Assembly: GCA_028279245.1 (NCBI GenBank) | Contig: JANQOE010000017.1 | Location: forward strand, 1 to 64,000 | Direction of reading: 5' to 3' | Origin: Alphaproteobacteria bacterium | Lineage (GTDB): Bacteria; Pseudomonadota; Alphaproteobacteria; UBA6615 | Length of the DNA: 64,000 nt | Part shown: piece by piece, positions 24,637 through 63,402 of the stretch | Layout of the letters: every line of letters starts with the position of its first letter | Numbering within the stretch: position 1 is the first letter of the stretch | Translations under genes and position numbers: made by a program | The notes under the pieces: model-generated | What the model was told of the DNA's origin: nothing | What the model saw: the letters and a program-made list of their open reading frames with translations, nothing else | Database searches by the model: none

Positions 24637-24656
24637 TGATCATTATGGCGGCGAGA

Positions 24657-30544: not shown

Positions 30545-31750
30545 ATGGTTGATGCTTTTGTGTGTGATGCGGTGCGGACGCCGATCGGCAGGTACGGCGG
30601 TGGGTTGGCGAGTGTGCGGACCGACGACTTAGCCGCGGTGCCGCTCAGGGCACTGGTTGACCGCAATGCCGGTGTGGATTGGGCGGCGATCGACGATGTC
30701 GTGTTGGGCTGCACCAATCAGGCCGGTGAGGACAATAGAAACGTAGCGCGAATGGCCTTGCTGCTGTCGGGCCTGCCGCACGGTGTGCCCGGCAGCACGG
30801 TCAACCGGCTCTGTGCGTCCGGGCTCGATGCCGTCGCCACGGCGGCCCGGGCCATAAACGCGGGCGAAGGTGAGCTGTACGTGGCCGGCGGTGTGGAGAG
30901 CATGTCGCGCGCACCGTTCGTCTTGCCGAAATCCGACAAGGCTTTCGGGCGAAGCACAAAGATCGAGGACACGACCATCGGCTGGCGGTTCGTCAATCCG
31001 GCCGTGGAACGCGCCTATGGCGTGGATTCCATGGGTCAGACCGCGGAGAACGTCGCCGCGGAGTACGGTATCAGCCGGGCCGACCAGGATGCGTACGCGC
31101 TTCGGTCGCAGCAGCGCGCGGCGAGCGCCATTGCCAAAGGCCGGCTCGAACGAGAGATCGTCGCCGTTGAGGTGCCTGGCCGACGGGGGGAGACCCACAG
31201 GATCGATGCCGACGAGCACCCGCGGCCGCAGACGGACGCGGCGGCGCTGGCGCGGTTGGAGCCCGCTTTTCGGGAAGGCGGGTCGGTGACAGCCGGCAAC
31301 GCGGCCGGGGTCAACGATGGTTCAGCCGCGCTCATAATCGCGTCAGAGGCCGCGGCGGCGCGGCATGGGCTGACTCCCCGGGCGCAAATTACGACCGCGG
31401 CCTTTGCGGGCGTGTTGCCACGTGTGATGGGGATTGGCCCGGTCCCGGCGAGCCAACGCGCGTTGACCCGGGCCGGATTGGCGATCGAACAAATGGACGT
31501 GGTCGAACTCAACGAGGCTTTCGCGAGCCAAGTCCTGGCCTCAGGCCGTCAACTTGGGTTGGCCGATGACGCCGCGCATGTGAACCGCAATGGCGGTGCT
31601 ATTGCGTTGGGGCATCCGCTTGGCATGAGCGGGGCGCGGCTGGTGCTGACCGCGACCGAGGAGTTGGCGAGTGTCGGAGGCCGGTATGCACTGTGCACGA
31701 TGTGTGTCGGCGTGGGCCAGGGTGCGGCGATGATTCTGGAGAAAGTGTAG
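30545..31750 (+). CDS. Acetyl-CoA acyltransferase, probable 3-oxoadipyl-CoA thiolase
   Basis: [26 protein letters not shown]...[19 protein letters not shown]...[21 protein letters not shown]...[13 protein letters not shown]. Confidence 0.9.
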
Positions 31751-31762
31751 ACAAGTCGGGAC

Positions 31763-32830
31763 GTGCGCGTGTTCGTTCATACCAGTCTGCCTAGCCGCGT
31801 GGTCTTTGGCCCGGGGCGGCTGGACTGTCTGCCCGACGAGGTCGCGGCCGCCGGGTTCGAACGCGCGCTGGTCCTCTCGACACCCCGGCAACGTGGGCTC
31901 GCGGAGCGGCTGGCATCGATGCTGGGGCGGCGGGCAGCCGGTGTGTTCGACCAGGCCGTCATGCATGTGCCCGTGGAAACTGTCGACGCGGCGATCGCGG
32001 CGGCGGAACGGAACGAGGCGGACTCGTGCGTGGCGTTCGGCGGCGGTTCGACCATCGGCCTGGGAAAGGCAATCGCGTTGCGGCGCGGCCTGCCCTACAT
32101 CGCCATCGCGACGACCTACGCCGGGTCGGAGATGACGACGATCTGGGGGCCCACGGCGTCCGGTGCGAAGCAGACCGGGCGCGATCCGCGAGTGCTGCCG
32201 CGTACTGTCATCTACGATCCTGAGCTAACCCTAGCGCTGCCGCCGAGAGTTTCCGGCCCGAGCGGGATGAATGCGATCGCCCACTGTGTCGAGGCGTTGT
32301 ACGCGGACGATGCCAACCCGGTGACCAGCTTGATGGCGGAGGAAGGTGTTCGGGCGCTGGCGACTAGCCTGCCCGTCGTCGTGGCGACGCCGGACGATCT
32401 GGCGGCACGGAGCGAGGCGCTGTACGGGGCCTGGCTCGCCGGCTCATCTCTCGGTGCGGTTGGGATGGCCCTGCATCACAAGCTCTGCCACACACTCGGC
32501 GGAACGCTGAACGTTCCGCATGCGGAGACTCACACGGCGGTCTTGCCGCACGCGGTGGCGTATAACGCACCGGCCGCGCCAGAGGCGATGACCCGCGTGG
32601 CGCGGGCCGTGGGCAGCGACAGCGCTGCGGCCGGTCTGTTCGAACTCGCGGAACGCCTCGGCGCGACAATGGCGCTACGCGACCTGGGGATGAAGGAACA
32701 GGATATCGATGCTGTCGCGGAACTGGCGAGTGCGAACGCCTACCCTAACCCACGGCCGGTGACACCAGACGGAATGCGCGGCGTTCTTGAGGCGGCATTT
32801 CATGGGCGGCGGCCAGGTGACGGTGCCTAG
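31763..32830 (+). CDS. Maleylacetate reductase
   Basis: [16 protein letters not shown]...[40 protein letters not shown]...[29 protein letters not shown] (Fe-ADH family). Confidence 0.9.
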
Positions 32831-34746
32831 GACGATCGAATGGCCGTGACAGAAAAGGCATCCAGTTCGATACTATTTTGAACGGCTTGTCCGTCATCCG
32901 ATAATGGGTCTTGCCCGTCGTTTGATGGGACGCTGGCCGGGCTGAGGATGCAGGATGTAGCGCCAGCCGGCAAACCGTCGACCGACACCGATCGAGGCTC
33001 GGACCAAAGGTTTGCCAGAAACACCTCTACCCCGGCCGGTGCGTCGTAGGCGAAGCCTTGCACCTGGGTCCGATCCGAGATCTGTAGGTCGCGAACCCGC
33101 CGCCCCGCTGCAGCGGCTATCGCTCGGACGATGTGATAGAGTGGACAGACCTCGGACGCAGCGCCATCCGGCATCAGGCCGAACGTGCCAAACGGCGAAG
33201 CCAAGGTCAGGGTGTCGATGCCGCCGCGGATCATCTCCGCGGCATAGCCGAGCGACCAGGCCGCGCCGAACAGCCCGCAATGGCGTGGATCCGTCGACGC
33301 CATTGCGACACGGCCATTGCCGGGGTTCTCCGCCGGCGCGGCCCCGTAAGGATTTTGCCGCATGCCGATGGTGCTGGGCCCGACCCAGTATCGCTTGTCC
33401 CCGGCGAATGCGCGGGTCGAGGCGATGACGAAGGGTAGCGCCTCCAGCGTTTCCATGACCGACCGGTCGTCGGCGTCATGCACAATCGGACAGGTTGTGT
33501 GGGTCACATAGTCGATGGCGTCGGCGGGCGGACGCTTTCGGTTCAGTTCCGTGAAGTAACTCAACATGCCGCCGCCAACCTGTGCCTCGGGAAAGCACTG
33601 GCGAACAGCATCGTAGTACGCCTCGAGCGGCGGTAGGACAGGCCAGGCGGCGTCCGGTTGGTAACTCATCAGATAGGCCGCTGGTGACACCGCGACGGCG
33701 TTGACCGCGAGGCCGGCGCCGCGCACCGCCTTGGCCGCAGCCGAAACCGATGCGGCGGGTTCCGTATCGTCCGGCACAATGAGCTCTAGAGCGACTTCGC
33801 AGCCGGTTTTGGCCGCGGTCTCGGCGTAGCTTGCGAGAGCGCCGGTATCACCAAAGCACATATCGAGTTGGCAAAGGATGAGTTGGGCACCAACCGCACC
33901 AGCGCGATCAGCCGCGCGGGCTGACTCTTCGGCGATGTCGGGCGTTAGGGCGAGCCCGATGCGCGGCATGTGGCGGCCGGTCGGCCCGCCGAGCGTCACC
34001 TCGATCGGTGCCGCGCCCACTGTTGCGACGCTTGCGGTCGGGCTGCCGACAAACGCTAGGGTCACCGATTGCCGAACGCTCTCGTCCGCCGGAACGGTGT
34101 AGGGGAAAGGCTTCGACAGCGGCCGCACATATGTCTTGTATGAGGCGTCGGTCCAATTCCGCTGATCCTCCATCTCGTATGCATCGCCCTCCATCGTGCA
34201 GACCGCTGCAACACCTGGGCAAACCTGGTGGCTCAAGGCACGGATATCGAAGACGGGCTGACTTGGACTGATGTGGCGTGGGAACGCGGTTTCTTCCGTG
34301 GTTCCGTCCGTATGGGTGACCGTGAGCTTTTCGCCAGCGACGCCGACCAGGGGATGCAGGACGACGAAGCCGAGGCGATTGGTCGCGAAGTCAGTGTCAG
34401 GTGCCCCAACCACGTCGAAGGAAAGCCGGCCGTCTTGGCCGCCGGTGATCGTTGCCTGATAGGAGAACGCCTGCTTCTCGTCCGTGCATTGCGCACCATA
34501 GGTTACCCTGAAGCCACCGTCAGCCTGCTCAATCTGCAGGTCCGAGATGTCGGGTGCGTAGGTGCCCCAATTCACGTTGCGAACCAAGAAGGCAATACCG
34601 CGGATAACCTCAATGCCGCGGTACTTGATGTGCCGAAGAGCGCCGGCTTCCAGCTCCACCGTGACCGGCCCCGCGGTCAACAGTTCGCCGACGACCGGCT
34701 GCTCCTCCGTACCGTAGAGAACCAGGTTGCGGTTTGCTTGTGCCAT
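32827..34746 (-). CDS. apnL: Probable D-apionate lactonase
   Basis: 639 aa; MAQANRNLVLYGTEEQPVVGELLTAGPVTVELEAGALRHIKYRGIEVIRGIAFLVRNVNWGTYAPDISDLQIEQ; recognised ApnL-like N-terminus; clustered with the ApnO/OiaK/RLP genes. Confidence 0.75.
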   Translation of the reverse strand: MAQANRNLVLYGTEEQPVVGELLTAGPVTVELEAGALRHIKYRGIEVIRGIAFLVRNVNWGTYAPDISDLQIEQADGGFRVTYGAQCTDEKQAFSYQATITGGQDGRLSFDVVGAPDTDFATNRLGFVVLHPLVGVAGEKLTVTHTDGTTEETAFPRHISPSQPVFDIRALSHQVCPGVAAVCTMEGDAYEMEDQRNWTDASYKTYVRPLSKPFPYTVPADESVRQSVTLAFVGSPTASVATVGAAPIEVTLGGPTGRHMPRIGLALTPDIAEESARAADRAGAVGAQLILCQLDMCFGDTGALASYAETAAKTGCEVALELIVPDDTEPAASVSAAAKAVRGAGLAVNAVAVSPAAYLMSYQPDAAWPVLPPLEAYYDAVRQCFPEAQVGGGMLSYFTELNRKRPPADAIDYVTHTTCPIVHDADDRSVMETLEALPFVIASTRAFAGDKRYWVGPSTIGMRQNPYGAAPAENPGNGRVAMASTDPRHCGLFGAAWSLGYAAEMIRGGIDTLTLASPFGTFGLMPDGAASEVCPLYHIVRAIAAAAGRRVRDLQISDRTQVQGFAYDAPAGVEVFLANLWSEPRSVSVDGLPAGATSCILSPASVPSNDGQDPLSDDGQAVQNSIELDAFSVTAIRSS

Positions 34747-34771
34747 GCCGTCCTCCCTCGGACGTTGTTTC

Positions 34772-35869
34772 TTATTGGATCACAAGATCGGTTTCGGGAT
34801 CGATCAGAACGATGCGGTTCATGTCGAAAAACAGTGAGAGTTGTTCGCCGGGGCGCTCGACGTCATGGGCTTCCAGTTCGGCCATCACCGGTTCGCCAGC
34901 CAGTTGGAAGGTTGCGTAAGTGCGCGTTCCGGTCGGCTGGATCAGATCGATCTTCACGCGCAGCGAAGCCAGTCCCGCCCGACCGTTGGCGCCGCGATCG
35001 CGGGTAATGTGCTCGGTTCGGACACCAAATACCACCTCGCGACCCGGTTCCAGACCGGACACCCGATCGCTGGGCATCGGTAGGCTTAGGCCATCACTGA
35101 AGGCCACGTTTATCTGGCCATTCTCGGCCGCTAGTCGTGCCGGGATAAAGTTCATTGAAGGTGAGCCGAGAAAGCCCGCGACGAACCGGCTGACCGGCCG
35201 TTCGAACATGTCGAGGGGGGCACCCTCCTGCTCGATCTTGCCGTTGCGCAGCAGCACGATGCGATCCGCGAGGGTCATCGCTTCGATCTGATCGTGGGTC
35301 ACGTAGACCATGGTCTTGCCGAGATCCTGATGCAGGCGTTTGATTTCGACCCGCATCTCCTCCCGCAGTTTGGCATCGAGGTTCGACAGAGGCTCGTCAA
35401 ACAGGAATACCCGGGCGTCCCGCACGATTGCCCGACCGATCGCTACCCGCTGGCGCTGGCCGCCGGACAACTGCCGCGGCAGCCGGTCAAGTTGATCGGT
35501 TATGCCGAGCATGTCCGCCGCTTGGTGAACCCGTGTTTCGATCTCGTTCGACGGAAACTTCCGGGCGCGTAGGCCGAAGGCGATGTTGTCGTACACGTTC
35601 ATGTACGGGTAGAGCGCGTAGTTCTGGAACACCATCGCGATATTGCGGTCGCGTGGCGCCATGTCGTTGACCACTTCGTCACCGATTTCGATGGTGCCGG
35701 CGTCGATTTCCTCAAGGCCGGCCAGTGCGCGTAGCAGCGTGCTCTTGCCGCATCCCGACGGACCGACAATGACCGTGAACTCGCCCTCCGGGATGTCGAG
35801 GGAGATGCCGCGCACGGCGTGCAGCTCGCCGTAGAACTTCTCGATGTTGTTAAGCCTGACCCGCGCCAT
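34772..35869 (-). CDS. ABC transporter ATP-binding protein (MalK/UgpC type)
   Basis: Walker A GPSGCGKSTLLRALAG, signature LSGGQRQRVAIGRAIVR, Walker B VFLFDEPLSNLDAKL, C-terminal TOBE-like region. Confidence 0.95.
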   Translation of the reverse strand: MARVRLNNIEKFYGELHAVRGISLDIPEGEFTVIVGPSGCGKSTLLRALAGLEEIDAGTIEIGDEVVNDMAPRDRNIAMVFQNYALYPYMNVYDNIAFGLRARKFPSNEIETRVHQAADMLGITDQLDRLPRQLSGGQRQRVAIGRAIVRDARVFLFDEPLSNLDAKLREEMRVEIKRLHQDLGKTMVYVTHDQIEAMTLADRIVLLRNGKIEQEGAPLDMFERPVSRFVAGFLGSPSMNFIPARLAAENGQINVAFSDGLSLPMPSDRVSGLEPGREVVFGVRTEHITRDRGANGRAGLASLRVKIDLIQPTGTRTYATFQLAGEPVMAELEAHDVERPGEQLSLFFDMNRIVLIDPETDLVIQ

Positions 35870-35871
35870 TC

Positions 35872-36750
35872 CTAGCCTTTCACGGCTCCCATTGAGATTC
35901 CACGGACGATGAAGCGTTGCATCGCGGCGACCGCGAAGAAGATGGGTAGTGTCCCGATGACACTCATCGCGCCAATTTTGCCCCAGAACGTCTGCTGGTG
36001 ACCGAAGAACCGGGTCATCTGCACCGGGAACGTAGTGACCTCCGTGCGCGATAGTATGAGCGCGAAAATGAAGTCATTCCAGGCGAAGATGAAGGTGAAG
36101 ACCGCTGTTGCAAACAAACCGGCCCGCGCCATTGGGAAAACCACCCGCCACAGCACTTGCCACCTCGTCCACCCGTCGACCAAGGCGCTGTGTTCGAGCT
36201 CGATCGGTATGTCTTCGATGTAACCACGCATCATCCAGATGACGTAAGGCAGGTTGAAGGCGGTGTAGAGCAGGATCAGACCGTGGAAGGAATCGATCCA
36301 GCCGAGGAGCGCGTACATCAGGAACAACGGAAACACGATGGTGATCGGCGGGATCATGCGCTGGGAAATGATCCAGATCGCCAGATTGTCTCCGCCCGTC
36401 TTGAACCTGGCCAGGCTGTAGGCTGCTATGGTCCCGAAGAACATCGCGAAAACGGTGCTGGTTCCCGCGGTGATCAGACTGTTCATGACCGTGTTCACGT
36501 CGCCATCGCGGAACAACTCGACAAACCCGTCGAGACTAAAGTCGGATGGAAGCCATACCGGTGGCGACGCAAAGACCTCTTCCGGTGTCTTGAAGGCCAT
36601 AATGAAGAGCCAATAGACCGGGAAAAGGAATATGATCGTGACGATCGTCGCGACGATATAGCGGACGACGAGTCTGCGGTTGGCCTTCCGGGCCCACCAT
36701 CCCTTGCTACTCGCCACTCCCAGCGGCTGCTGCACGGACACGGCGGTCAT
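35872..36750 (-). CDS. ABC sugar transporter permease (MalG type)
   Basis: IPIELEHSALVDGWTRWQVLWRVVFPMARAGLFATAVFTFIFAWNDFIFA; ends GISMGAVKG; start placed at ATG 36750. Confidence 0.92.
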   Translation of the reverse strand: MTAVSVQQPLGVASSKGWWARKANRRLVVRYIVATIVTIIFLFPVYWLFIMAFKTPEEVFASPPVWLPSDFSLDGFVELFRDGDVNTVMNSLITAGTSTVFAMFFGTIAAYSLARFKTGGDNLAIWIISQRMIPPITIVFPLFLMYALLGWIDSFHGLILLYTAFNLPYVIWMMRGYIEDIPIELEHSALVDGWTRWQVLWRVVFPMARAGLFATAVFTFIFAWNDFIFALILSRTEVTTFPVQMTRFFGHQQTFWGKIGAMSVIGTLPIFFAVAAMQRFIVRGISMGAVKG

Positions 36751-37664
36751 CGCGCGAGTTCCACCCGGCGCAGGGCCAGAATGACAATGATCGACAGCAG
36801 GACGATCACGACGAAGGCGATCGCCGCCGTATAGCTCGTTTCGAACTGTTGGAAGCCCAGCACGAACGCGTACAGCGAAATGGTCTCGGTCGTCGTGCCG
36901 GGACCGCCCTTGGTCAGGGCCCAAACGATGTCGAAGAGCCGAAAGAGGTCCAGGCCGCGGATCAACAGGACGATCGCCAGGACTGGTTTGATGGCTGGTA
37001 GGACAATCTTGAAGAAGATCCGTAGCCCGGATGCGCCGTCGATCTGCGCCGCCTCAATCTGCGATTTGTCAACGTTGGACAACGCTGCCAGCAACAGCAG
37101 GAACATGAACGGCGTCCACTGCCAGACTTCGGTGATGAAGATGGCTGGCCAGACGAAGGCGCGGTCTACCGTCCAGGTGATGTCGACCGGCCCGCCGACG
37201 ATCCAACCGAGGATTTGATTGACCGGCCCGAACTGGGTGTCGAGCATGAGCCGCCACATGGCACCGGCGACGATGGGCGAAATGACCGTCGGAATGATCA
37301 GCAGTGCGACAAAGATACCGCGGCCGGGCATCCTGTCGACGAACAAGAGAGCCAGGAGAAGACCTAGGATGAGTTCGGCCGGGAGGGCGACCGCCGTGAA
37401 GGCAAGGGTATGCCAGATCGACTGCCAGAGACGGGCATCCTCGAACAGGCGCCCGTAGTTAAGACCGCCCTGAAAGGTCTTGTTCTCACCGATGATCGAG
37501 ATGTCTTGAAAGCTGACAATCAGCAGATTGATCAGCGGAAAGATGGCCACCAGCAGCAGTATGAGGACTGCCGGCCAGACCAAGAGATACTTGAAGCGAC
37601 GGTCCGCAAACACACTGACGCGGTAGCCGAATGATGTGTCAGCGATGGAGGTCGTCGCCTTCAA
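36747..37664 (-). CDS. ABC sugar transporter permease (MalF type)
   Basis: LVWPAVLILLLVAIFPLINLLIVSF...DKSQIEAAQIDGASGLRIFFKIVLPAIKPVLAIVLL. Confidence 0.92.
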   Translation of the reverse strand: MKATTSIADTSFGYRVSVFADRRFKYLLVWPAVLILLLVAIFPLINLLIVSFQDISIIGENKTFQGGLNYGRLFEDARLWQSIWHTLAFTAVALPAELILGLLLALLFVDRMPGRGIFVALLIIPTVISPIVAGAMWRLMLDTQFGPVNQILGWIVGGPVDITWTVDRAFVWPAIFITEVWQWTPFMFLLLLAALSNVDKSQIEAAQIDGASGLRIFFKIVLPAIKPVLAIVLLIRGLDLFRLFDIVWALTKGGPGTTTETISLYAFVLGFQQFETSYTAAIAFVVIVLLSIIVILALRRVELAR

Positions 37665-37679
37665 CTCCGGTAGAAAAGA

Positions 37680-37707
37680 ATAGGGCCAGCCAAGAGGCCG
37701 GCCCTAT
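37680..37707 (-). terminator. Hairpin plus U-rich tract between SBP and permease genes (partial terminator/attenuator-like)
   Basis: Minus strand ATAGGGCCgGCC-TCTT-GGCtGGCCCTAT followed by TCTTTTCT. Confidence 0.7.
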
Positions 37708-37718
37708 CGCAGATGTCT

Positions 37719-39161
37719 TCAGTTCGGATAAGCGTTTGGCTTTGCAGCCCAATCTGAATAGGCACGCTTCTGAACGTCGACGCCGATCCTGTCGGTTAGG
37801 CGATCCCATTCAGCAGCCGCCTGGTCCAGGGCGGCTTGCGGATCCTCACCGCCGAAGGCCGCGGTGATGGCCCGTGTCAGCGCCTCTTCATACGCTGCCG
37901 TGCTGCGGATGGAGAGATCGAGCAGGCCCGTCTCGGCACCCTTCTGCAGCGTATCGAGGTACTCGTTCGCGTTGCCCCAGGCGTTCTGATAGTCCTCGTT
38001 CTGGAAATGCGAGGTGCGGAACGGATCGCGCAAGGCGTAAGGCAACTGCACCCGTTCTATGCTGATCTCCTTGCTGTTGAGCCACTGGGCGAACAGGTAG
38101 GCGGCCTCCTTGTTGGCGCTGTCCGATGACACGGCCAGGGAGAAACCGGCTGCCAATTGTGGTGCACCACCCGGTGGGAGTGCATAACCGACCTTGCCAG
38201 CGACCTCCGAGGTCGGCACGAACGAGAGAACGTCGGCATCAAAGAAACCGTCGGACCAGCGTCCTGGCGGCGGCCACCAACCCATCATGGCCAGGTTGCC
38301 GGACAGCCAAGCGCTGAGGGTCTCAATCGGTCCCCAGGCTTCGACGCCGGGCGGCATGAATTGATGCTCCTCGATCATGCCGGCCAGCGCCTGGACACCC
38401 GCATCACTGTTGATCTGGGCGCGCATGGTTTCTTGGTCGAAGAAGCGACCACCGTTCGTGCGGAATCGTTCCTCAAAGAAGAAGTGGATCAGGCCCGGGA
38501 CACGGATCTGCGCGGACCCGAAGAAATCCGGACCAAGTTCCTCACTCTCTGTGAAGTACTGAGAGATCTCCAGGAACTGCTGCCACGTCTCCGGCGGCGC
38601 CAGGTCGTAGCCAAACCGGTCGCTGAACGCAGCGCGGTGGTTTTCGTCCGCGAACAGATCCTTACGGTAGTAAAGGATCAAGACATCGCCGTCGTCCGGC
38701 AGGCCGTAGACGGTGTCCTGATAGGCCATCTGATTGTCCCGGTAGACCGGTGCGATGTCCTGCAGTTCGTCGCGGTAGCCGTGTTGATCGATGAACGCGT
38801 CCAGCGGTTCGAGCGCCCCGGCTTCCGCCAGGTCGGGTATCCATGCCGGCACGACGTTCAACAAATCGAATGCGCCGGTGCCAGCACGGTGCTCGGCGAG
38901 CGTCTTGGTGAAGAGTTCCTGGATTGGGATCTCGACTACGTTGATCTTGATGCCGGTCAGTTCTTCCCATTTCGGCCCGGAGAACAGCAGCGGGTCCTGC
39001 GCTTGCAGGCCGGCTTCCCAGGTCACGTTAAGGGTCGTCCCCGCATATTGCTTCGCCGCCTCGACCGCGCGTTCCGCGGCCGACTGCGCCGACGCCGCAC
39101 TCGATCCGAGCGCAAGAGCAACAGTGGCGCCGAGACCGATTAGCGATCTCGCTAATGGCAT
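37719..39161 (-). CDS. ABC sugar transporter, extracellular solute-binding protein
   Basis: MPLARSLIGLGATVALALGSSAASAQS signal; LNVTWEAGLQAQDPLLFSGPKWEELTGIKINVVEIP...DTVYGLPDDGDVLILYYRKDLF. Confidence 0.92.
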   Translation of the reverse strand: MPLARSLIGLGATVALALGSSAASAQSAAERAVEAAKQYAGTTLNVTWEAGLQAQDPLLFSGPKWEELTGIKINVVEIPIQELFTKTLAEHRAGTGAFDLLNVVPAWIPDLAEAGALEPLDAFIDQHGYRDELQDIAPVYRDNQMAYQDTVYGLPDDGDVLILYYRKDLFADENHRAAFSDRFGYDLAPPETWQQFLEISQYFTESEELGPDFFGSAQIRVPGLIHFFFEERFRTNGGRFFDQETMRAQINSDAGVQALAGMIEEHQFMPPGVEAWGPIETLSAWLSGNLAMMGWWPPPGRWSDGFFDADVLSFVPTSEVAGKVGYALPPGGAPQLAAGFSLAVSSDSANKEAAYLFAQWLNSKEISIERVQLPYALRDPFRTSHFQNEDYQNAWGNANEYLDTLQKGAETGLLDLSIRSTAAYEEALTRAITAAFGGEDPQAALDQAAAEWDRLTDRIGVDVQKRAYSDWAAKPNAYPN

Positions 39162-39345
39162 TAGCTTCCTCCCTATGTTTTTTGGCGAGGTCTCAAGTCT
39201 CCAGTTGGTATAGTGATCCTACCAGTGTTCGAGGCAAACGCAACTGGGGGACAACAGCCTCGCATTCTCGAAAGAATGTTAGCTGTGGGACGAACGAAAC
39301 GCCATTTTTTTGCTGATGTGGGTGGCCGATGCGACCGGCCAAGGA

Positions 39346-40056
39346 TCAAAGGAAGCGCTGATAGAGCTTATTCGACCGATTCAGGTGGTCGCAAAGAGCG
39401 TTCTCGGCTTGATCAGCGTCTCGCTTTTCGATCGCGTCGACGATCGCCAGGTGTTCCGAAATCGTCAGGTCTTCGGAACCGGACACGCGAAGTTGGTCCA
39501 AGTAGAACTTTTGCAGCCAGGACAGGATTGCCATCGAGACAGCCGGATAGATGCTGTTGTCACCGACGGAGGCGATCCGCGTATGGAACTGCATGTCGCA
39601 GCGCATGAACGAACCCGCATTCTGTTCGTCTTTCGCGGCGGCTTGCTGGCGGACCAGTTCACGCAGCGCGGCCACGTCCTCTTCGGTTCCTGTCTCCGCA
39701 GCCCGCCGGACCATCTGCCGCTCAAACAGCAGCCGGGCTTCCTTCATTTCGCCCATCATCTTGTCCGACTTGTTCAGCAGAAATTGGGTCGTCACACCCA
39801 TCTGCTCGAACACCCGACCAAAATCGAGCTGTGAAATGCGGGCACGTTCGCCGTGGGAAATTGTCACGAAACCGAGGCGTTCCAGGTTCTGCAGGGCCTC
39901 CCGCACCGTTGGACGACCGACCTCGAACCAGGTCATGAGTTCGCGCTCGGACGGTAACTGGTCGCCAGGCTTCAGCTTTTCGGACTGGATGAAGTCCAAC
40001 AGTCCGTTGGTGACTTCTTCGTAGAGCTTGCGGCGGCGCACCGGTTCTGGGCGCAT
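39346..40056 (-). CDS. GntR/FadR-family transcriptional regulator
   Basis: LLDFIQSEKLKPGDQLPSERELMTWFEVGRPTVREALQNLERLGFVTISHGERARI HTH. Confidence 0.93.
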   Translation of the reverse strand: MRPEPVRRRKLYEEVTNGLLDFIQSEKLKPGDQLPSERELMTWFEVGRPTVREALQNLERLGFVTISHGERARISQLDFGRVFEQMGVTTQFLLNKSDKMMGEMKEARLLFERQMVRRAAETGTEEDVAALRELVRQQAAAKDEQNAGSFMRCDMQFHTRIASVGDNSIYPAVSMAILSWLQKFYLDQLRVSGSEDLTISEHLAIVDAIEKRDADQAENALCDHLNRSNKLYQRFL

Positions 40057-40239
40057 GGTTGACCTCCGTCAGATGTCAGGTTGTCGCATGTTTCACCGAT
40101 CGCCTGAAGAGAAAACCCCAACCCATTGAAAAAACTACATTACCGATTCATGGGCCCACCCAGGTGGGATCTCATGGCGCCGACCTTCCCGCGGAAGCAT
40201 TCTCCTGAAGATGAAACAACATGTTATCATCTTATTGTG

Positions 40240-40250
40240 TTGTCCGACCA
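40240..40250. promoter_or_regulatory. Candidate FadR-type GntR operator
   Basis: TTGTCCGACCA, one base from TGGTCCGACCA, in the GntR/SBP divergent region. Confidence 0.45.
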
Positions 40251-40360
40251 CCTGATTGTATAATCTGCGCGCCTTGAGGGTAACTTAATTCGGCTTGTCA
40301 TTTCCCGGTTGAGACACGTTTGGCCGGAATGACCAGCACGTACAGCAAGGGAGGATGAGG

Positions 40361-41371
40361 ATGCGCGTAGTGCATCTGGGCGCCGTCGCGATGGCGAGCG
40401 CCCTGTTTGTCGGAGTCAGCGGTTCGTCCGCGCAGGCACAGACGATCTGTTTCGCCTTTCAGGATCTCGAGACTGAGTTCTGGGTCGCCGGTCACAAGGC
40501 CATCACAACAACACTGGAAGAAAAGGGAGTCCGCGTCATCGAGCGGAATGGCAACGAGGATGCCAACCGCCAGCTTGAGCAGGTCCGTGACTGCATCGCG
40601 CAGGGTGTGGACGGGGTCATCATCATTCCGCAGGACGGCGAGAGCGCGGTGACCATCGTCAAGGAATCACAGGAGAATGATGTTCCGATTGCCGTGTTCA
40701 ATCGGCCACCATCCGACCTGAGCCGCGGCCTGGTGGTTGTTGCCGACAACGAAACCATCGCCCAACAGGCGGTCGAGTTCATGGCGCAGAAGGCGATAGC
40801 CAGGTTCGAGGTCACGGGCGAAAAGGCCACGCCGCTCATCATGGTCGGTGACCTGGGCGACCCGAATGCGGTCGGACGCCGCGACGGCTTCTTCAACGTG
40901 ATGGAGAAGTATCCGCAGTACTTTAACGATCCAATCGAGGTGTCGACCGAGTGGGATGCAGCAACCGCGCTCGCCAACCTCGAGGCGGCGGTTACCGCCA
41001 ATCCGGATGTCGACTTCCTGTTCACCTCATCGGATTTCTTGTTTCCGACGATCCGTTCGGTGCTTGAGCCGCGGGGCAAATGGCTGCCTGCCGGTCAGGA
41101 AGGACATGTGATCATGGGTGGCCTCGACGGTGATGCGACGGCGTGCCAACTCATCAAGGACGGATTTGTCACCGCCACGGGCGTACAGGATCTGTTCTTC
41201 GAGGCGGAAGCCGCAATGGATGCCATCCTGACAGCCATTGATGCCGGCGAAACGCAGCCCAACCAGGTTATTGAGGACCCCGGCTTCGCCTTGACCGCAG
41301 CCAACCTCGATGTCCGTGAGATGGACATGTGGGGTTGTGTATTGTTGGCCGAGGGCTTCTTGGATCAGTAG
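40361..41371 (+). CDS. ABC transporter substrate-binding protein (RbsB-like, CUT2)
   Basis: Signal peptide; TICFAFQDLETEFWVAGHKAITTTLEEKGVRVIERNGNEDANRQLEQVRDCIAQGVDGVIIIPQDGESAV. ATG 40361 is well spaced from AAGGGAGG. Confidence 0.92.
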   Translation: MRVVHLGAVAMASALFVGVSGSSAQAQTICFAFQDLETEFWVAGHKAITTTLEEKGVRVIERNGNEDANRQLEQVRDCIAQGVDGVIIIPQDGESAVTIVKESQENDVPIAVFNRPPSDLSRGLVVVADNETIAQQAVEFMAQKAIARFEVTGEKATPLIMVGDLGDPNAVGRRDGFFNVMEKYPQYFNDPIEVSTEWDAATALANLEAAVTANPDVDFLFTSSDFLFPTIRSVLEPRGKWLPAGQEGHVIMGGLDGDATACQLIKDGFVTATGVQDLFFEAEAAMDAILTAIDAGETQPNQVIEDPGFALTAANLDVREMDMWGCVLLAEGFLDQ

Positions 41372-41380
41372 AACGACGAC

Positions 41381-41409
41381 TTGGAGCCCGGCTGGTCGCC
41401 GGGCTCCAA
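41381..41409 (+). other. Intercistronic stem-loop after SBP (perfect 12 bp stem, 5 nt loop)
   Basis: TTGGAGCCCGGC-TGGTC-GCCGGGCTCCAA. Confidence 0.8.
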
Positions 41410-41437
41410 TACTCGCGAAGAAAGGTTGGACCGGCAG

Positions 41438-42586
41438 GTGTCCACAATCGAATCTGGGAGCGCGCCGGCGCAGGTAGGGTCAAAGGGCTGGGCCTCGCCG
41501 GTGCGGCGGGTGCTGCTGTCTGAGTACTTCGTCCTCTATCTGACGATTGTCTATTTCCTGATCCTGCTGCCGTTTCTGCCGACGCTTTCCAATCCGCAGA
41601 ACCTTAGTAACGTCCTCTCCAATATGTGGCCGTTGTTGGCGGTGGCGGTCGGCCAAACGCTGGTTCTCACAATTGCGGGCATCGACCTATCTCAGGGTTC
41701 CGTCATTGGCCTGACAAGCGTGGTCGGTGCCGCACTAATAGCAACGGCGGCGTCGAGCGACGTTCTGTCCAACAGCGTGTTATGGGGGTTGGTCATCACC
41801 GAGCAAGGCGGGCTGTTCGCCGGCAAGAGCTGGGCGGTCCCGGCCGGGATAGTGGCGATGCTGCTGGTCGGTGCATTGATCGGTCTGATCAACGGTATCG
41901 CCGTCGCTCTCCTCCGCATGCCGCCTTTCATGGTGACGTTGGTCGGCTTGATCGCGTTTGGCGCCTTCGCAATCTTCCTGACTCAATCCGAGAACATCAG
42001 AAACCTGCCGGATGCCTACATCGCGCTCGGCAAGGGCGATATCGTCTCCGTTTACCTCGGCGAACAATCGACACCTCAGATACCCCGGCGGCAGATCTAC
42101 TCCTTTATCACCTACCCGATGATCATCTCGATCACACTGGCGGTGTTCGCGCACTTTCTGCTGAGTCGCACGATGTTCGGCCGTCATGTGTACGCGGTAG
42201 GTGCCAATCGTCGCGCCGCCGAGATATCCGGTGTGCCGGCGAAGCGCATCATCATTCAGGTCTTCGTCTTCAGCGCGGTGTGCGCCACGATCGGCGGCAT
42301 CCTGTTCTCCGCCCGCCTGGAAGCCGGCCGGCCCACCTTGGGCGAAGGGACATTCCTGCTGGATGTCATCGGGGCCACGGTGATTGGCGGCACCAGCCTG
42401 TTCGGCGGGAAGGGCAAGATCGTTTGGACGTTCTTTGGCGTTCTGTTCTTTGTGTTGTTGTCGAATACGCTCAATCTGATGAACCTGTCATCATTCCACA
42501 TCGACATGGTCAAAGGGAGCGTCATCCTGGCGGCAGCATTGCTGGACGTCACTCGCAGGCGGCTGCTGGCCGGAGGCCTAGCATGA
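41438..42586 (+). CDS. ABC transporter permease (RbsC-like)
   Basis: LAVAVGQTLVLTIAGIDLSQGSVIGLTSVVGAAL...TMFGRHVYAVGANRRAAEISGVPAKRIIIQVFVFSA...GATVIGGTSLFGGKG. Track start 41381 lies in the hairpin, so GTG 41438 is preferred. Confidence 0.88.
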   Translation: MSTIESGSAPAQVGSKGWASPVRRVLLSEYFVLYLTIVYFLILLPFLPTLSNPQNLSNVLSNMWPLLAVAVGQTLVLTIAGIDLSQGSVIGLTSVVGAALIATAASSDVLSNSVLWGLVITEQGGLFAGKSWAVPAGIVAMLLVGALIGLINGIAVALLRMPPFMVTLVGLIAFGAFAIFLTQSENIRNLPDAYIALGKGDIVSVYLGEQSTPQIPRRQIYSFITYPMIISITLAVFAHFLLSRTMFGRHVYAVGANRRAAEISGVPAKRIIIQVFVFSAVCATIGGILFSARLEAGRPTLGEGTFLLDVIGATVIGGTSLFGGKGKIVWTFFGVLFFVLLSNTLNLMNLSSFHIDMVKGSVILAAALLDVTRRRLLAGGLA

Positions 42587-44088
42587 GCATCCTGCTGGAG
42601 ACTCGCGGTCTCACCAAGTCCTTCTTCGGCGTCCCGGCCCTCCGCGACGTGTCGTTGACGATCCACGAGGGCCGTATTCTTGGTCTGATCGGTGAGAATG
42701 GGGCGGGCAAGAGCACCCTGATGAATGTCGTTGACGGCGTGTTTCCGGCGACCGATGGCAGCATGTTTTTACGCGGCCTTCCCTATCAGCCCCGGTCGCC
42801 AGCCGATGCGACGGGTCATGGCATCGCGTTCATTCACCAGGAGCTCAACCTGTTCTCGAACCTGACTGTTGCCGAGAACATCTTCGTCGACGCGTTTCCG
42901 ATGCGCGCGGGCTTTATCGATCGGCGGTCGATGCGCCGGGAGACGGAACGGCTCCTGGCATCGCTGGACCTGGAGATTGCTCCCGACACCCTGCTCGACC
43001 GGTTGGCACCGGGTGAGCGGCAACTCGTCGAGATCGCCAAAGCATTGCGGTCAAACCCGCAGCTCATCATCTTCGATGAGCCCACAAGCTCCCTCACGGC
43101 CCGGGAAACGGAGCGACTGTTCGAGGTTATCCGTCGACTGCGGGATGAGGGCAAGACCTTGATCTACATCTCGCACATGCTGAGCGATGTCAGAGCTCTC
43201 TCAGACGACATCGCCGTGTTGCGCGACGGTGAACTGGTCGGCAGCGGCCCGGCTGAGGAGCTGGATACGAGCCGCATGATCGAGCTGATGATCGGCCGCG
43301 AGCTCGCGCAGCTTTATCCGCCAAAGACTGCGGCGCCCGGTCGTGATCCAGTGCTGCGAGTTGCGGCGATGACGCAGCCTGGCGTGGTCCAGGACGTCGA
43401 CTTGGAGGTCCGTGCGGGCGAGATTGTCGGGCTGTTCGGCCTCATGGGCGCGGGGCGGACCGAACTTGCCAGGATGGTCTTCGGTTTGGACGAGTTCGCG
43501 CACGGTGAGATACGGATCGGCGGCACGCTGTTACGCGGACAGTCACCCACCGATCGGATTGAACACGGCATGGCGTTCGTCACGGAGAACCGGCGCGAAG
43601 AGGGCTTGCTGATGGAGTCCACCATCGCCGACAACATCGCGCTGGTTTCGCTCGCGTCCTACGCGCGCACCATTCTGCGCTTTGTCGACGCCCCAAAGCT
43701 GTCGGCCGTCGCCCAGCAGATGGCGGACGATCTCCAGATCAAGGCCCACGACATCGGCGGGCAGCCGGCGAAGAGTCTCAGCGGCGGCAATCAACAGAAG
43801 GTCGTTATCGGCAAGTGGCTAATGCGGCAGCCCAAGCTGTTCGTCTTGGACGAACCGACACGCGGTGTCGACGTCGGCGCCAAATACGAGATCTACAGTC
43901 TGATGGATCGCCTCGCCCGCGAGGGGAGCGGCGTCCTATTCATCTCGTCGGAAGTCGAAGAGCTGATGGCGATGTGCGACCGCATCCTGGTGATGAACCG
44001 CGGTGAGGTTAGTGGCGAGTTTGGTGAGCGTCCCTTCAAGCAAGACCAGCTCCTGCGCGCAGCATTCCGCGAGGACTTGGCCGCATGA
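42583..44088 (+). CDS. Sugar ABC transporter ATP-binding protein (RbsA/MglA type, duplicated ATPase)
   Basis: MSILLETRGLTKSFFGVPALRDVSL...GENGAGKSTLMNVVDG...LSGGNQQKVVIGKWLMRQPKLFVLDEPTRGVDVGAK. Confidence 0.94.
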   Translation: MSILLETRGLTKSFFGVPALRDVSLTIHEGRILGLIGENGAGKSTLMNVVDGVFPATDGSMFLRGLPYQPRSPADATGHGIAFIHQELNLFSNLTVAENIFVDAFPMRAGFIDRRSMRRETERLLASLDLEIAPDTLLDRLAPGERQLVEIAKALRSNPQLIIFDEPTSSLTARETERLFEVIRRLRDEGKTLIYISHMLSDVRALSDDIAVLRDGELVGSGPAEELDTSRMIELMIGRELAQLYPPKTAAPGRDPVLRVAAMTQPGVVQDVDLEVRAGEIVGLFGLMGAGRTELARMVFGLDEFAHGEIRIGGTLLRGQSPTDRIEHGMAFVTENRREEGLLMESTIADNIALVSLASYARTILRFVDAPKLSAVAQQMADDLQIKAHDIGGQPAKSLSGGNQQKVVIGKWLMRQPKLFVLDEPTRGVDVGAKYEIYSLMDRLAREGSGVLFISSEVEELMAMCDRILVMNRGEVSGEFGERPFKQDQLLRAAFREDLAA

Positions 44089-45131
44089 ACCGGCTGGATC
44101 AGCTCCGGTCGCAGCTCCTGCGCAATTCGACGCTGGTGATGTTCGTGCTCATCTTCCTGTTCTTCGGTCTACAGGAACCGCGGTTTCTGCAGCCGGAGAG
44201 CCTGGGGAACATCATCAAGCAATCCTCTTTCATCGGGATCGCCGCAGTGGGGATGACATTTGTCCTGCTGACAGCGGGCATTGATCTGTCGGTCGGGTCG
44301 GTCATGTACCTGGCGCCGCTGATAGCCGGCTTCGCCATGCGCAACTATGGATTGGATGTCGAGTTCGCGCTGGTGCTGGCTATTTTCGCTGGCTTGGTGA
44401 TGGGGGCGATCAACGCGTTCTTCATCGTCGTGCTGCGGATCATCCCCTTCATCGTGACCCTCTCGACTCTGTTCTTCTTTCGCGGTGCTGGCACGTTCCT
44501 TACACAATCGCGGCAACTCGACTTTCCGCGAGAAGTGCTCGATTTCGGACTGGCGAGGGTTCTGGGTATCCCGCTTCCCATCATCATCTTCGCCCTGGTC
44601 GTCGCAGCCGCGTTCGTCACGCTGACACGCACACCGTTCGGACGGCACGTCTACGCGGTGGGTAATGACATCAACGCGGCGCGCAAGGCCGGCATCAACG
44701 TCGACTGGATTGTCTTCCGTGTCTACCTGATCAGCAGCGCGTGCGCGGCGCTGGCCGGGTTCATCGTCATCGCGCAGATCGGCCGGCTGGATCAGTCTTT
44801 CGGCGAGGGTCGGGAGTTCGATGTGATCGCGGCCGCGGTCCTTGGTGGCGCGAGCCTGTTCGGGGGTGTCGGCAGTGCGCTAAGTCCCTTGATCGGCGCC
44901 ACGATGATCCAGACGGTGAAAGCGGGCCTGATCTTCAACGGCACCAACTTGTATGCCCAACCCATCATGCTGGGCGCAGTCATCTTTGCCGCTGTGTTGT
45001 TTGACAGTCTGCGGCAAATGAACCTGCAGAAGTCGCGCCGGCGCTTCATCCGTCCGATTCAAACGGAGACGGAACCGGCCGAGCGGAACAAAGGACCGAG
45101 ACATCCAGCCGGCGCAGCGGCGCGGACGTAG
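44085..45131 (+). CDS. ABC transporter permease (RbsC-like), second
   Basis: AAVGMTFVLLTAGIDLSVGSVMYLAPLIAG...TPFGRHVYAVGNDINAARKAGINVDWIVFRVY...VLGGASLFGGVGSALSPLIGA. Confidence 0.93.
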   Translation: MNRLDQLRSQLLRNSTLVMFVLIFLFFGLQEPRFLQPESLGNIIKQSSFIGIAAVGMTFVLLTAGIDLSVGSVMYLAPLIAGFAMRNYGLDVEFALVLAIFAGLVMGAINAFFIVVLRIIPFIVTLSTLFFFRGAGTFLTQSRQLDFPREVLDFGLARVLGIPLPIIIFALVVAAAFVTLTRTPFGRHVYAVGNDINAARKAGINVDWIVFRVYLISSACAALAGFIVIAQIGRLDQSFGEGREFDVIAAAVLGGASLFGGVGSALSPLIGATMIQTVKAGLIFNGTNLYAQPIMLGAVIFAAVLFDSLRQMNLQKSRRRFIRPIQTETEPAERNKGPRHPAGAAART

Positions 45132-45141
45132 GGTAAAAGCC

Positions 45142-46398
45142 ATGGGCGTTTCACGTATCGAGGCAGACTATCTGATCGAAACCGCATTCGATCCCCGCGC
45201 CGCGGCAGAGGCCATGGCCGGCGAACAGTCCTCCGGGACATTCGTCAAGGTCCCGGGTCAGACCGCCGAACTGGAAGCGCGATCAGCAGCGCGCGTGGAG
45301 GCCCTGAGCGCACTCGAGCCGATTGAGACCCCTTCCCTGCCCGGTGCCCGACGCCCGGACAACGCGCCGATCCAGCGGGCAACTGTTACGCTGTCTTGGC
45401 CCATCGACAACCTCGGCCCATCGCTGCCAAACCTGATGGCAACGGTGTCCGGTAACCTTTACGAACTCGGCCAGTTCTCCGGGTTGCGGTTACTCAACTT
45501 GCGGTTGCCCGATGCGTTCGCTGATGCCTATCCCGGCCCGCGCTTCGGGGTCGAGGGTACCCGACGGCTGTCAGGCGTCGTCAGCGGTCCGCTGGTAGGC
45601 ACGATTATCAAGCCGAGCGTCGGCTTCGGACCTCAGGAAACCGCCGATCTGGTTCGCGCGCTGGCGGAAGCCGACATCGACTTCATCAAGGACGACGAGT
45701 TGCAGGCCGACGGACCCACCTGCCCGTTTGACCAACGGGTCGAGGCGGTGATGACCGAGATCGATCGGGCTGCCGACAAGACCGGCAAGAAGATCATGTA
45801 CGCCTTCAACCTGACCGGCGATCTGGATCAGATGCGGCGGCGGCACGATCTGGTGGTCAAGCGCGGCGGCACTTGTGTGATGGCCAGTCTGAACAGTGTT
45901 GGCCTTGTCGGCATGATCGAACTGGGCCGCCACGCCAAGCTGCCGATCCATGCCCACCGGAATGGCTGGGGGTACCTGTCGCGTCACCCAAGCCTCGGGT
46001 TTTCTTATGTGGCATGGCAGAAGTTCTGGCGCTTGGCCGGTGCCGACCACATGCATGTGAACGGTATTCGCAACAAGTTCTGCGAGGATGATGAGAGCGT
46101 CATTGCGTCGGCGCGCGCGTGCCTGACACCTCTGTTCGACGACAAGCCGTGCCTGACTATGCCGGTGTTCTCGTCCGGCCAATGGGCCGGGCAGGCGTTC
46201 GACACCTATGCAGCGCTGGGATCGGCCGATCTGATCTACGCCGCGGGCGGCGGGATCATGGCGCATCCGGCCGGGCCGCGCGGCGGGGTCGAGAGTATTC
46301 GCGCGGCGTGGGCCGCAGCGCAGGCTGGAGAAACTCTGGAAAGCACCGCGGCGCGGATCCCAGCCGTAGGCCAGGCGGTGGAGAAGTTCGGCGGATGA
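45142..46398 (+). CDS. RuBisCO-like protein, probable 3-oxo-isoapionate-4-phosphate transcarboxylase/hydrolase or decarboxylase
   Basis: RLP fold: VGTIIKPSVGF, ADIDFIKDDELQ (Lys at the carbamylation site), LPIHAHRNGWGYLSRHPSLGFSY, AGGGIMAHPAGPRGG; adjacent kinase and ApnO-like genes. Confidence 0.85.
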   Translation: MGVSRIEADYLIETAFDPRAAAEAMAGEQSSGTFVKVPGQTAELEARSAARVEALSALEPIETPSLPGARRPDNAPIQRATVTLSWPIDNLGPSLPNLMATVSGNLYELGQFSGLRLLNLRLPDAFADAYPGPRFGVEGTRRLSGVVSGPLVGTIIKPSVGFGPQETADLVRALAEADIDFIKDDELQADGPTCPFDQRVEAVMTEIDRAADKTGKKIMYAFNLTGDLDQMRRRHDLVVKRGGTCVMASLNSVGLVGMIELGRHAKLPIHAHRNGWGYLSRHPSLGFSYVAWQKFWRLAGADHMHVNGIRNKFCEDDESVIASARACLTPLFDDKPCLTMPVFSSGQWAGQAFDTYAALGSADLIYAAGGGIMAHPAGPRGGVESIRAAWAAAQAGETLESTAARIPAVGQAVEKFGG

Positions 46399-47768
46399 CG
46401 TCGCTGCCCGACGGTCTGTTGCTCTCGTTTTACGGAGACGACTTCACCGGGTCGGCGGCGGTGATGGAGGTGTTCTCCTTCGCTGGTCTGCCGGCCATTC
46501 TCTTTCTCGATATCCCAACCACCGAGCAGCTGGCGAACTTGACGAGTTACCGCGCGGTGGGGATCGCCGGCGTGGCGCGCGCCAAGAACCCGGACTGGAT
46601 GGAAGTCAATCTGCCGCCAGTGTTCCGGACCCTGCGGGAGCTGAACGCACCCCTGGCCCATTACAAGGTCTGTTCCACCTTTGATTCCGCTCCGACCACC
46701 GGTTCGATCGGCAAGGCCATTGACATCGCCGCGCCAATCCTCGGCGGCCGGTGGCATCCACTGTTGATCGCTGCGCCGACGATCCGTCGTTACCAGGCTT
46801 TCGGAAACCTGTTCGCCGCCGTCGACGGATTCGCCCACCGGCTCGACCGCCATCCGACGATGAGCCGTCATCCGACTACGCCGATGAACGAGGCGGACGT
46901 CCGATTGCATTTGGGTGAACAGACGGAGAAGCAGGTTGGCCTGCTTGATCTCCTGGCACTGCGGACGGACGATCCGCGGCACGCGCTCGCGCAAGAGATG
47001 GTGAATGGCAGCGAGGTCATCGCGCTCGACGTGATCGACGATGCGGGTCTTGCCGCGGCCGGTCGTCTGATCTGGCAGGAGCGCGGCGAACGCCTGCTCG
47101 CCATTGGGTCCCAGGGCGTGGAGTACGCGTTGGTCGCCCATTGGCGAGAAGCGGGACTGTTACCTGATGAACCCGGGTCCTTTGCCGCGGGCAAGGAGGA
47201 TCGGATCGCCGTTGTCTCCGGCTCCTGCTCGCCGGAGACCGCCCAGCAGATCGAGTGGGCCGGCAGCAATGGTTTCGCGCTGATCCGGATCGACCCCAGC
47301 CTGGTAACCGATTCCGCGGCATGGCAAGGCGAAGTCGGCCGCGCCACGCAGGCAGCCTTGGACGCGGTCGGCCAAGGCCGAGATCCAATCGTATTCACGG
47401 CCAAGGGCCCGGACGACCCGGCCATTCAACGCTTCAACGAGTCCGTCGACATAGCGCGGCTTGCGCCCGCGGAAGCAAATGCGCGCGTCGGAAACGGCCT
47501 CGGTGAGTCTCTCAACAACGTCATGGGCCGCTCTGGGCTGCGCCGATGCGTGATCGCCGGCGGCGATACGTCGAGCTACGGCGCGCCGGCACTGGGAATC
47601 TACGCCCTCACCGCGCTGGCGCCGACGGGCGTGCCCGGTGCTGCGTTGTACAAGGCACATTCGAATGCCACGGAATATGCCGATTTGGAGATCGCCCTCA
47701 AGGGCGGACAGATGGGAACACACGACTACTTCGGCCAGATCAAAGAGGGCGGCCGGCTGGGTCCATAG
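46395..47768 (+). CDS. oiaK: Four-carbon acid sugar kinase family (DUF1537), probable 3-oxo-isoapionate kinase
   Basis: LLLSFYGDDFTGSAAVMEVFSFAGLPAILFL...YKVCSTFDSAPTTGSIGKAID...CVIAGGDTSSYGAPALGI; ATGA overlap with the RLP gene. Confidence 0.8.
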   Translation: MTSLPDGLLLSFYGDDFTGSAAVMEVFSFAGLPAILFLDIPTTEQLANLTSYRAVGIAGVARAKNPDWMEVNLPPVFRTLRELNAPLAHYKVCSTFDSAPTTGSIGKAIDIAAPILGGRWHPLLIAAPTIRRYQAFGNLFAAVDGFAHRLDRHPTMSRHPTTPMNEADVRLHLGEQTEKQVGLLDLLALRTDDPRHALAQEMVNGSEVIALDVIDDAGLAAAGRLIWQERGERLLAIGSQGVEYALVAHWREAGLLPDEPGSFAAGKEDRIAVVSGSCSPETAQQIEWAGSNGFALIRIDPSLVTDSAAWQGEVGRATQAALDAVGQGRDPIVFTAKGPDDPAIQRFNESVDIARLAPAEANARVGNGLGESLNNVMGRSGLRRCVIAGGDTSSYGAPALGIYALTALAPTGVPGAALYKAHSNATEYADLEIALKGGQMGTHDYFGQIKEGGRLGP

Positions 47769-47780
47769 GGAGGAAAGACG

Positions 47781-48617
47781 ATGACGAGCATAGCTTTGCT
47801 GGGCGCCGGGGGAAAAATGGGCTACCGGCTCTCGAAGAACCTGAAAGGCTCCCGTTTCGACGTCCGCCACGTCGAGATCAGCGATGCTGGCCGGCAACGC
47901 TTGAAGGACGACCTTGCGGTCGATTGCGTTGATCAGGATGCCGCGCTTGACGGCGCCGATGTCGTCGTCCTGGCGGTCCCTGATGTGCTGATCGGCCGGA
48001 TCTCGCACGGCATCGACGACAAGCTATCCAGCAGCACAATGGTCATGACCCTGGATCCGGCGGCGCCTTTCGCCGGCGAACTGCCACAACGGGCTGACCG
48101 AACCTATTTCATCACGCATCCATGTCACCCCCCGTTGTTTAACGATGAGACCACGGTGGAAGCGAAGCGTGACTTCTTCGGGGGCCTTCACGCGAAGCAA
48201 CATATCGTCTGTGCGCTGATGCAGGGGCCGGAGGACGCCTATGCACTCGGCGAGGAGATCGGCCGCACGATCTACGCGCCGGTTATGCGGTCGCACCGCG
48301 TGACGGTCGAACAGATGGCGATTCTAGAGCCGGCCTTGTCCGAGACGACGGCAGCGACGTGCGTGAGCGTGCTGCGCGAGGCGATGGACGAGGCCGTTCG
48401 TCGCGGTGTGCCGCCAGAGGCCGCGCGCGATTTCCTGCTGGGTCACCTCAACATCGAGATCGCGATTCTGTTCGAGGAGTTCCCTGGTGTCTTCTCCGAC
48501 GCCGCCAACAAGGCGATCAAACGGGCGAAGGACAAGATCTTCCAGCCGGACTGGAAATCAGTGTTCGAGCCCGAAGACGTCAAACAGCAGATCTACGATA
48601 TTACGAGGCCCGACTGA
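47781..48617 (+). CDS. apnO: Probable D-apionate oxidoisomerase (phosphogluconate-dehydrogenase-like)
   Basis: TSIALLGAGGKMGYRLSKNLKGSRFDVRHVEISDAGRQRL Rossmann start; FITHPCHPPLFNDE; context with RLP and kinase. Confidence 0.75.
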   Translation: MTSIALLGAGGKMGYRLSKNLKGSRFDVRHVEISDAGRQRLKDDLAVDCVDQDAALDGADVVVLAVPDVLIGRISHGIDDKLSSSTMVMTLDPAAPFAGELPQRADRTYFITHPCHPPLFNDETTVEAKRDFFGGLHAKQHIVCALMQGPEDAYALGEEIGRTIYAPVMRSHRVTVEQMAILEPALSETTAATCVSVLREAMDEAVRRGVPPEAARDFLLGHLNIEIAILFEEFPGVFSDAANKAIKRAKDKIFQPDWKSVFEPEDVKQQIYDITRPD

Positions 48618-48658: not shown

Positions 48659-48735
48659 TGGTCGGGACGCCCGGATTCGAACCGGGGACCTCCACCTCCC
48701 CATGGTGGCGCGCTACCAGGCTGCGCTACGTCCCG
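48659..48735 (-). tRNA. tRNA-Pro(GGG)
   Basis: Reverse strand CGGGACGTAGCGCAGCCTGGTAGCGCGCCACCATGGGGAGGTGGAGGTCCCCGGTTCGAATCCGGGCGTCCCGACCA; 7 bp acceptor stem, GGG in loop ATGGGGA, encoded CCA. Confidence 0.96.
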
Positions 48736-62970: not shown

Positions 62971-63402
62971 TTATCCAAGTTTGGCGACGCGGGGCGCGTG
63001 GCGACCACCCGCGAATTCCGTGTTCAAAAAGGCGATTACGCAGTCAAAAGCCGTGCTGGGGCCAATGACGCGTGCACCGAGAGCCAGAACGTTCGCATCG
63101 TTGTGCTCCCGCGACAGCTTGGCGGTCGTTACGTCATGGCACAGAGCAGCCCGCACGCCGGGCACACGGTTGGCGGCGATCGATATCCCAATCCCCGTGC
63201 CACAGACGGCAATGCCCCAGAGGGCTTGGCCGTTGCCAACGGCTTCCGCCAGGGTGCGGCCGAAATCGGGGTAGTCGACCGACCGGTCGTCGAAGGTGCC
63301 CAAATCGAGTTGGTCGTAGCCCTCCCGCTCAAGCAGACGGCGTATCTCCTCCTTGAGAGCAAAGCCCGCGTGATCGCTTGCCACGGCAACGACCTGACCC
63401 AC
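62971..63402 (-). CDS. rpiB: Ribose-5-phosphate isomerase B family
   Basis: [45 protein letters not shown]...[50 protein letters not shown]. Confidence 0.95.

Follow-up and report, generated by a model that had tools for sequence, protein, structure and literature searches.

The window, a 64,000-nt stretch at the start of an alphaproteobacterial contig (JANQOE010000017.1), belongs to a genome assembly of 4.34 Mb in 137 contigs that is 93% complete. A search of this genome recovered no 16S rRNA gene; in another genome of the same class, the region around the rRNA operon has its best matches among alphaproteobacterial records. Between positions 32827 and 48617 it carries a gene cluster with the following features:

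32827-34746, minus strand: ApnL-like protein, predicted D-apionolactonase, 639 aa (NCBIfam NF049900, matched at full length)
34772-35869, minus strand: CUT1 sugar ABC transporter ATPase of the UgpC/MalK type (Pfam ABC_tran and OB_MalK; NF008653 452 bits, above the cut-off)
35872-36924, minus strand: CUT1 permease (BPD_transp_1); the 350-aa open reading frame runs into the next gene, and the real start is probably downstream
36747-37664, minus strand: CUT1 permease (BPD_transp_1), 77% identical to that of apionate locus L208
37719-39161, minus strand: CUT1 solute-binding protein (SBP_bac_1), 76% identical to that of L208 and 67% to that of apionate locus L022
39206-39224, no strand: putative regulator binding site TGGTATAGTGATCCTACCA (TGGTA-N9-TACCA), a recurring palindrome
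39346-40056, minus strand: GntR/FCD regulator, NanR-like (GntR and FCD domains; NF003011 274 bits, cut-off 260)
40355-41371, plus strand: CUT2 solute-binding protein (Peripla_BP_4)
41381-42586, plus strand: CUT2 permease (BPD_transp_2)
42583-44088, plus strand: CUT2 ATPase, 501 aa, with two ABC_tran domains; the start is an ATG overlapping the preceding stop
44085-45131, plus strand: CUT2 permease (BPD_transp_2), 60-68% identical to those of apionate loci
45142-46398, plus strand: RuBisCO-like protein (RLP), 418 aa, pointing to the OiaT type (Pfam RuBisCO_large, E 1.5e-61)
46395-47768, plus strand: OiaK, predicted 3-oxo-isoapionate kinase (DUF1537/SBD_N-NBD_C; NF042436 545 bits)
47781-48617, plus strand: ApnO, predicted D-apionate oxidoisomerase of the PGDH_C family (PF16896 E 8.6e-71; PDB 5t57 E 2.6e-109)

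The RLP, OiaK and ApnO genes are packed exactly as the sequence-only reading had described: the OiaK ATG at 46395 overlaps the RLP stop codon as ATGA, and a 12-bp gap separates the OiaK stop (47768) from the ApnO start (47781). Between the ApnL-like gene and the RLP gene lie a complete CUT1 ABC transporter (34772-39161, minus strand), the regulator gene and a complete CUT2 ABC transporter (40355-45131, plus strand); the CUT1 genes are directly upstream of the ApnL-like gene, and the CUT2 genes run into the RLP gene. A tRNA-Pro(GGG) gene on the opposite strand (48659-48735), the sole match in an Rfam search, begins 41 bp past the ApnO stop and could mark an insertion point, the cluster being patchy in its bacterial family. 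On the other side, a 3-oxoadipyl-CoA thiolase gene (PcaF, above the cut-off) and then a gene for an iron-containing alcohol dehydrogenase (30545-32830) converge on the ApnL-like gene with a 4-base overlap. These two genes probably serve aromatic degradation, and they were dropped as cluster members as they have no match among the compared apionate loci. Positions 22021-26181 hold genes for a fimbrial usher and two PapD-like chaperones.

The enzyme families named in the sequence-only reading were recovered in the present analysis. The ApnL-like lactonase scores 665.6 bits (E 6.8e-200) on NF049900, below the cut-off of 750, while ApnL proteins of other clusters score 816-1054 bits, with one at 313, and are 46-49% identical to it. 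Its context and homology argue for a divergent relative that would work like ApnL. The DUF1537-type kinase has the SBD_N and NBD_C domains, and its 545 bits fall below the NF042436 cut-off of 700. The Xanthobacter OiaK passes this cut-off with 810 bits, and the kinases of OiaX operons (435-469 bits) fail it too, indicating that the cut-off is narrow. The phosphogluconate-dehydrogenase-like protein contains the PGDH_C domain and the HPCHPP motif noted earlier (as THPCHPP), and it is 67-70% identical to ApnO in rhizobial apionate operons. The DFIKDDE motif of the RLP is located at residues 180-186. The hits to the ApnL, OiaK and OiaX models all stay under the curated cut-offs, which counts against the overall reading proposed here.

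We compared the cluster with related RLP loci. Within the DNA available, an OiaK-type kinase gene is present in 86 of 91 related RLP loci, and an ApnO gene in most of them, indicating that the arrangement is not due to chance. Many of these loci add ApnL, a Gfo/Idh/MocA dehydrogenase, a NanR-like regulator and sugar ABC transporters. The recurrence of the gene set in dozens of loci bears out the earlier proposal of a D-apionate pathway built from these families and running from D-apionolactone onward, and the comparison of loci yielded no evidence against a D-apionate reading. The CUT2 binding protein is 65-78% identical, and the CUT2 permease at 41381-42586 is 58-72% identical, to their counterparts in apionate loci L040, L041, L043, L051 and L012; the CUT2 ATPase is 57-60% identical to those of apionate loci, and the CUT1 ATPase is 63% identical to that of L022. 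Because the binding proteins of both systems match those of apionate loci, including L208 from the window's own bacterial family, both transporters recur in apionate loci.

The cluster resembles three known arrangements to different extents. In the Xanthobacter autotrophicus operon, ApnO, RLP and OiaK adjoin each other as in the window (63%, 60% and 47% identical, respectively), but the gene order differs, and the window adds ApnL, the GntR regulator and two ABC transporters. A plasmid of Microvirga ossetica (NZ_CP016618) holds CUT2, ApnL, a NanR-like regulator, RLP (72% identical), OiaK, ApnO and CUT1 in one cluster as well, but it has a DUF2291-type CUT2 system and carries ApsD inside the cluster, whereas the ApsD candidate of the window's genome is on another contig. 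Rhizobium OiaX operons (for example R. phaseoli, NZ_CP013536) share the NanR-like regulator, RLP, OiaK, ApnO, CUT2 and ApnL, but their RLPs are only 44-46% identical and belong to another clade, and they also carry TIM (LerI-like), RpiB (DerI-like) and DhaKL genes.

The palindrome TGGTA-N9-TACCA has 11 matches with the 9-nt spacer in 2.3 Mb of apionate loci, versus one in total for spacers of 5-8 and 10-13 nt. It occurs in ten loci besides the window; in six of the ten, the distance to the GntR gene is no more than 600 bp. The only match in the window, TGGTATAGTGATCCTACCA, is located 44 bp before the start of the CUT1 binding-protein gene, ahead of the transporter-lactonase operon, and differs by one or two bases from the copies in the Herbaspirillum and Collimonas loci. 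The GntR/FCD regulator is 38-49% identical to the regulators of other apionate loci, and we infer that it binds this putative site. Another candidate site, a generic FadR-type operator at 40240 (TNGTNNNACNA), was discarded, as relatives do not conserve it.

The sequence-only reading had named the RLP as OiaC/OiaX, and this part of it did not hold. To our knowledge, OiaC does not belong to the RLPs. Among the NCBIfam models, OiaX matches the RLP best (NF042437, E 5e-140) and is the only one covering this RLP group, but the score of 467 bits is below the equivalog cut-off of 700 bits, whereas the RLPs of annotated OiaX operons score 760-786 bits. Ten plasmid-borne relatives of the RLP score 409-518 bits on the same model. 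Maximum-likelihood trees unite the OiaX proteins in a single clade (support 100/100) that excludes the window RLP, and the window RLP falls together with the Xanthobacter RLP, to which it is 60% identical, in a 17-row clade (support 99/98). The Xanthobacter genome, which we take to be that of X. autotrophicus Py2, has only one close RLP, and its gene is in the ApnO-RLP-OiaK operon. In the window, the RLP gene likewise stands together with the ApnO and OiaK genes, as expected for OiaT. The X. autotrophicus RLP is reported to be OiaT, a 3-oxo-isoapionate-4-phosphate transcarboxylase/hydrolase (Carter et al., 2018, via PMC6302742); the passage concerned lists organisms and activities in matching order but does not say "respectively".

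The active-site residues differ between the two RLP groups. In RuBisCO numbering, E60, N123, K175, K201, D203, E204, H294, R295, H327 and K334 are kept in the window and Xanthobacter RLPs, and both have Ser for K177 and Phe for W66. Thus, in the RuBisCO set of K175, K177, K201, D203, E204, H294, H327 and K334, only K177 is replaced. The OiaX proteins, by contrast, have D, G and Q at the positions of E60, N123 and H327, which correspond to residues 28, 105 and 305 of the window RLP. This pattern suggests that residues with a part in RuBisCO hydration and C-C cleavage persist in RLPs with a hydrolytic reaction and have disappeared from those that simply decarboxylate. Together, the sequence, the tree, the active-site residues and the genome context point to an RLP of the OiaT type rather than OiaX, so the predicted route most likely ends in 3-phosphoglycerate and glycolate.

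Genes that could act downstream and upstream of the cluster were searched for in the related loci and in the host genome. TIM-like and RpiB-like genes are present in the OiaX operons of Rhizobium sp. CCGE531, R. phaseoli and Rhizobium sp. N621, where they fit L-erythrulose-phosphate processing. LerI/DerI-type genes were found in none of the 91 non-OiaX loci; because they are also not in view in six of nine OiaX loci, their absence beside the RLP gene is weak evidence alone. The host genome has a single TIM gene and a single RpiB gene (62971-63402 in the window), the latter adjoining glyA (serine hydroxymethyltransferase) in a housekeeping arrangement, indicating that this 93% complete genome holds no spare LerI/DerI pair. 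It also encodes GlcD, GlcE and GlcF in a row, a full glycolate oxidase that allows the use of glycolate and is consistent with glycolate as a product. The cluster itself has no ApsD gene; a homologue 60% identical to ApsD, a Gfo/Idh/MocA protein, is encoded on another contig (C19) between isoprenoid genes (dxs/ispE) and an SDR gene, unlinked to the cluster. This homologue, a likely candidate for the D-apiose dehydrogenase, is found in two of 24 family genomes (the host and G011), and the RLP cluster is present in both; related RLPs with an identity of at least about 50% occur in three of the 24 (the host, G011 and G016). The ApsD candidate elsewhere in the genome also amends the reading from the sequence alone, since D-apiose itself may be the entry point of the route.

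Other readings of the cluster were weighed against these results. If the RLP were a decarboxylase with OiaX function, the route would lead to L-erythrulose 1-phosphate and then D-erythrose 4-phosphate. The best-match annotation and the upstream enzymes shared with OiaX operons favor this, but the sub-threshold score, the separate OiaX clade, the different residues of OiaX at E60, N123 and H327, and the lack of a second TIM gene or of any RpiB gene other than the glyA neighbor in the host genome make it unlikely. It is somewhat more doubtful still that the same chemistry serves another sugar acid, such as another branched-chain aldonate, for which CUT1 and CUT2 systems, an unusual pairing, would be the importers. 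In favor of this, ApnO and ApnL are missing from some members of the wider RLP-kinase superclade, which stand beside other dehydrogenases, so that other routes seem to have taken up the RLP-kinase pair; the window, however, has ApnL, ApnO and OiaK together, its RLP shares a clade with the Xanthobacter enzyme, and the ApsD candidate occurs alongside. Reading the RLP as a true RuBisCO or a methionine-salvage enolase unrelated to apionate is scarcely credible: most RuBisCO active-site residues are kept, including K201, D203, E204, H294, R295, H327 and K334, but K177 and W66 are replaced, the gene context is catabolic, and the protein scores 208 bits on the RuBisCO III model (cut-off 497) and 137 on MtnW (cut-off 514). 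In the tree, it belongs to the apionate RLP superclade and is far removed from the RuBisCO and RLP2 types, and the grouping with DK-MTP-1P enolases or other non-apionate RLPs that would speak against a D-apionate role was not seen, as far as it could be tested. A very speculative variant is that the cluster acts on a sugar acid other than D-apionate, with the RLP subgroup having a further RLP function and CUT1 importing an apiose-like glycoside.

Two sets of relatives may illustrate such other uses. A separate RLP clade (L166, L203-L206, L118 and L211), which includes the solved B. fungorum RLP (PDB 3nwr), has kinases only 33-38% identical to OiaK; the loci examined are without ApnO or ApnL, one has adjoining TRAP transporter genes, and the clade is a candidate for a new RLP route. 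In L011 and L167, RLP-kinase pairs without ApnO stand beside LysR-type regulators, TRAP transporter genes, an SDR/glucose-dehydrogenase gene and pyruvate kinase, which suggests recruitment for another sugar acid.

We consider it likely, with a probability of about 0.8, that the window holds a D-apionate (D-apiose) catabolic cluster with an OiaT-type RLP. In this D-apionate route, the two ABC transporters would import D-apionate, D-apionolactone, D-apiose or an apiose-containing compound, and the Gfo/Idh/MocA protein on the other contig would be the likely D-apiose dehydrogenase. The ApnL-like protein would convert D-apionolactone to D-apionate, ApnO would convert D-apionate to 3-oxo-isoapionate, and OiaK would phosphorylate the latter to its 4-phosphate. 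The RLP would then carry out a RuBisCO-like hydration and C-C cleavage of 3-oxo-isoapionate-4-phosphate to give 3-phosphoglycerate and glycolate, the latter to be oxidized by GlcDEF. The NanR-like GntR regulator probably controls the cluster via TGGTA-N9-TACCA.

The cluster is thus a well-supported further case of the known D-apionate pathway, not a new system, and it places the OiaT-type route for D-apiose, a plant cell-wall sugar, and D-apionate in another alphaproteobacterial lineage. A large group of RLPs would be misnamed after the nearest NCBIfam model, OiaX: best-hit annotation would predict CO2 release and a tetrose phosphate in place of glycolate and 3-phosphoglycerate. Strain LCG007, able to grow on D-apiose, has been annotated with an OiaX-like decarboxylase (PMC11747546). 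The contrast at E60, N123 and H327 offers a simple, testable rule that would separate OiaX from OiaT RLPs, and it bears on how the RuBisCO scaffold may have turned from hydrolytic cleavage to decarboxylation.
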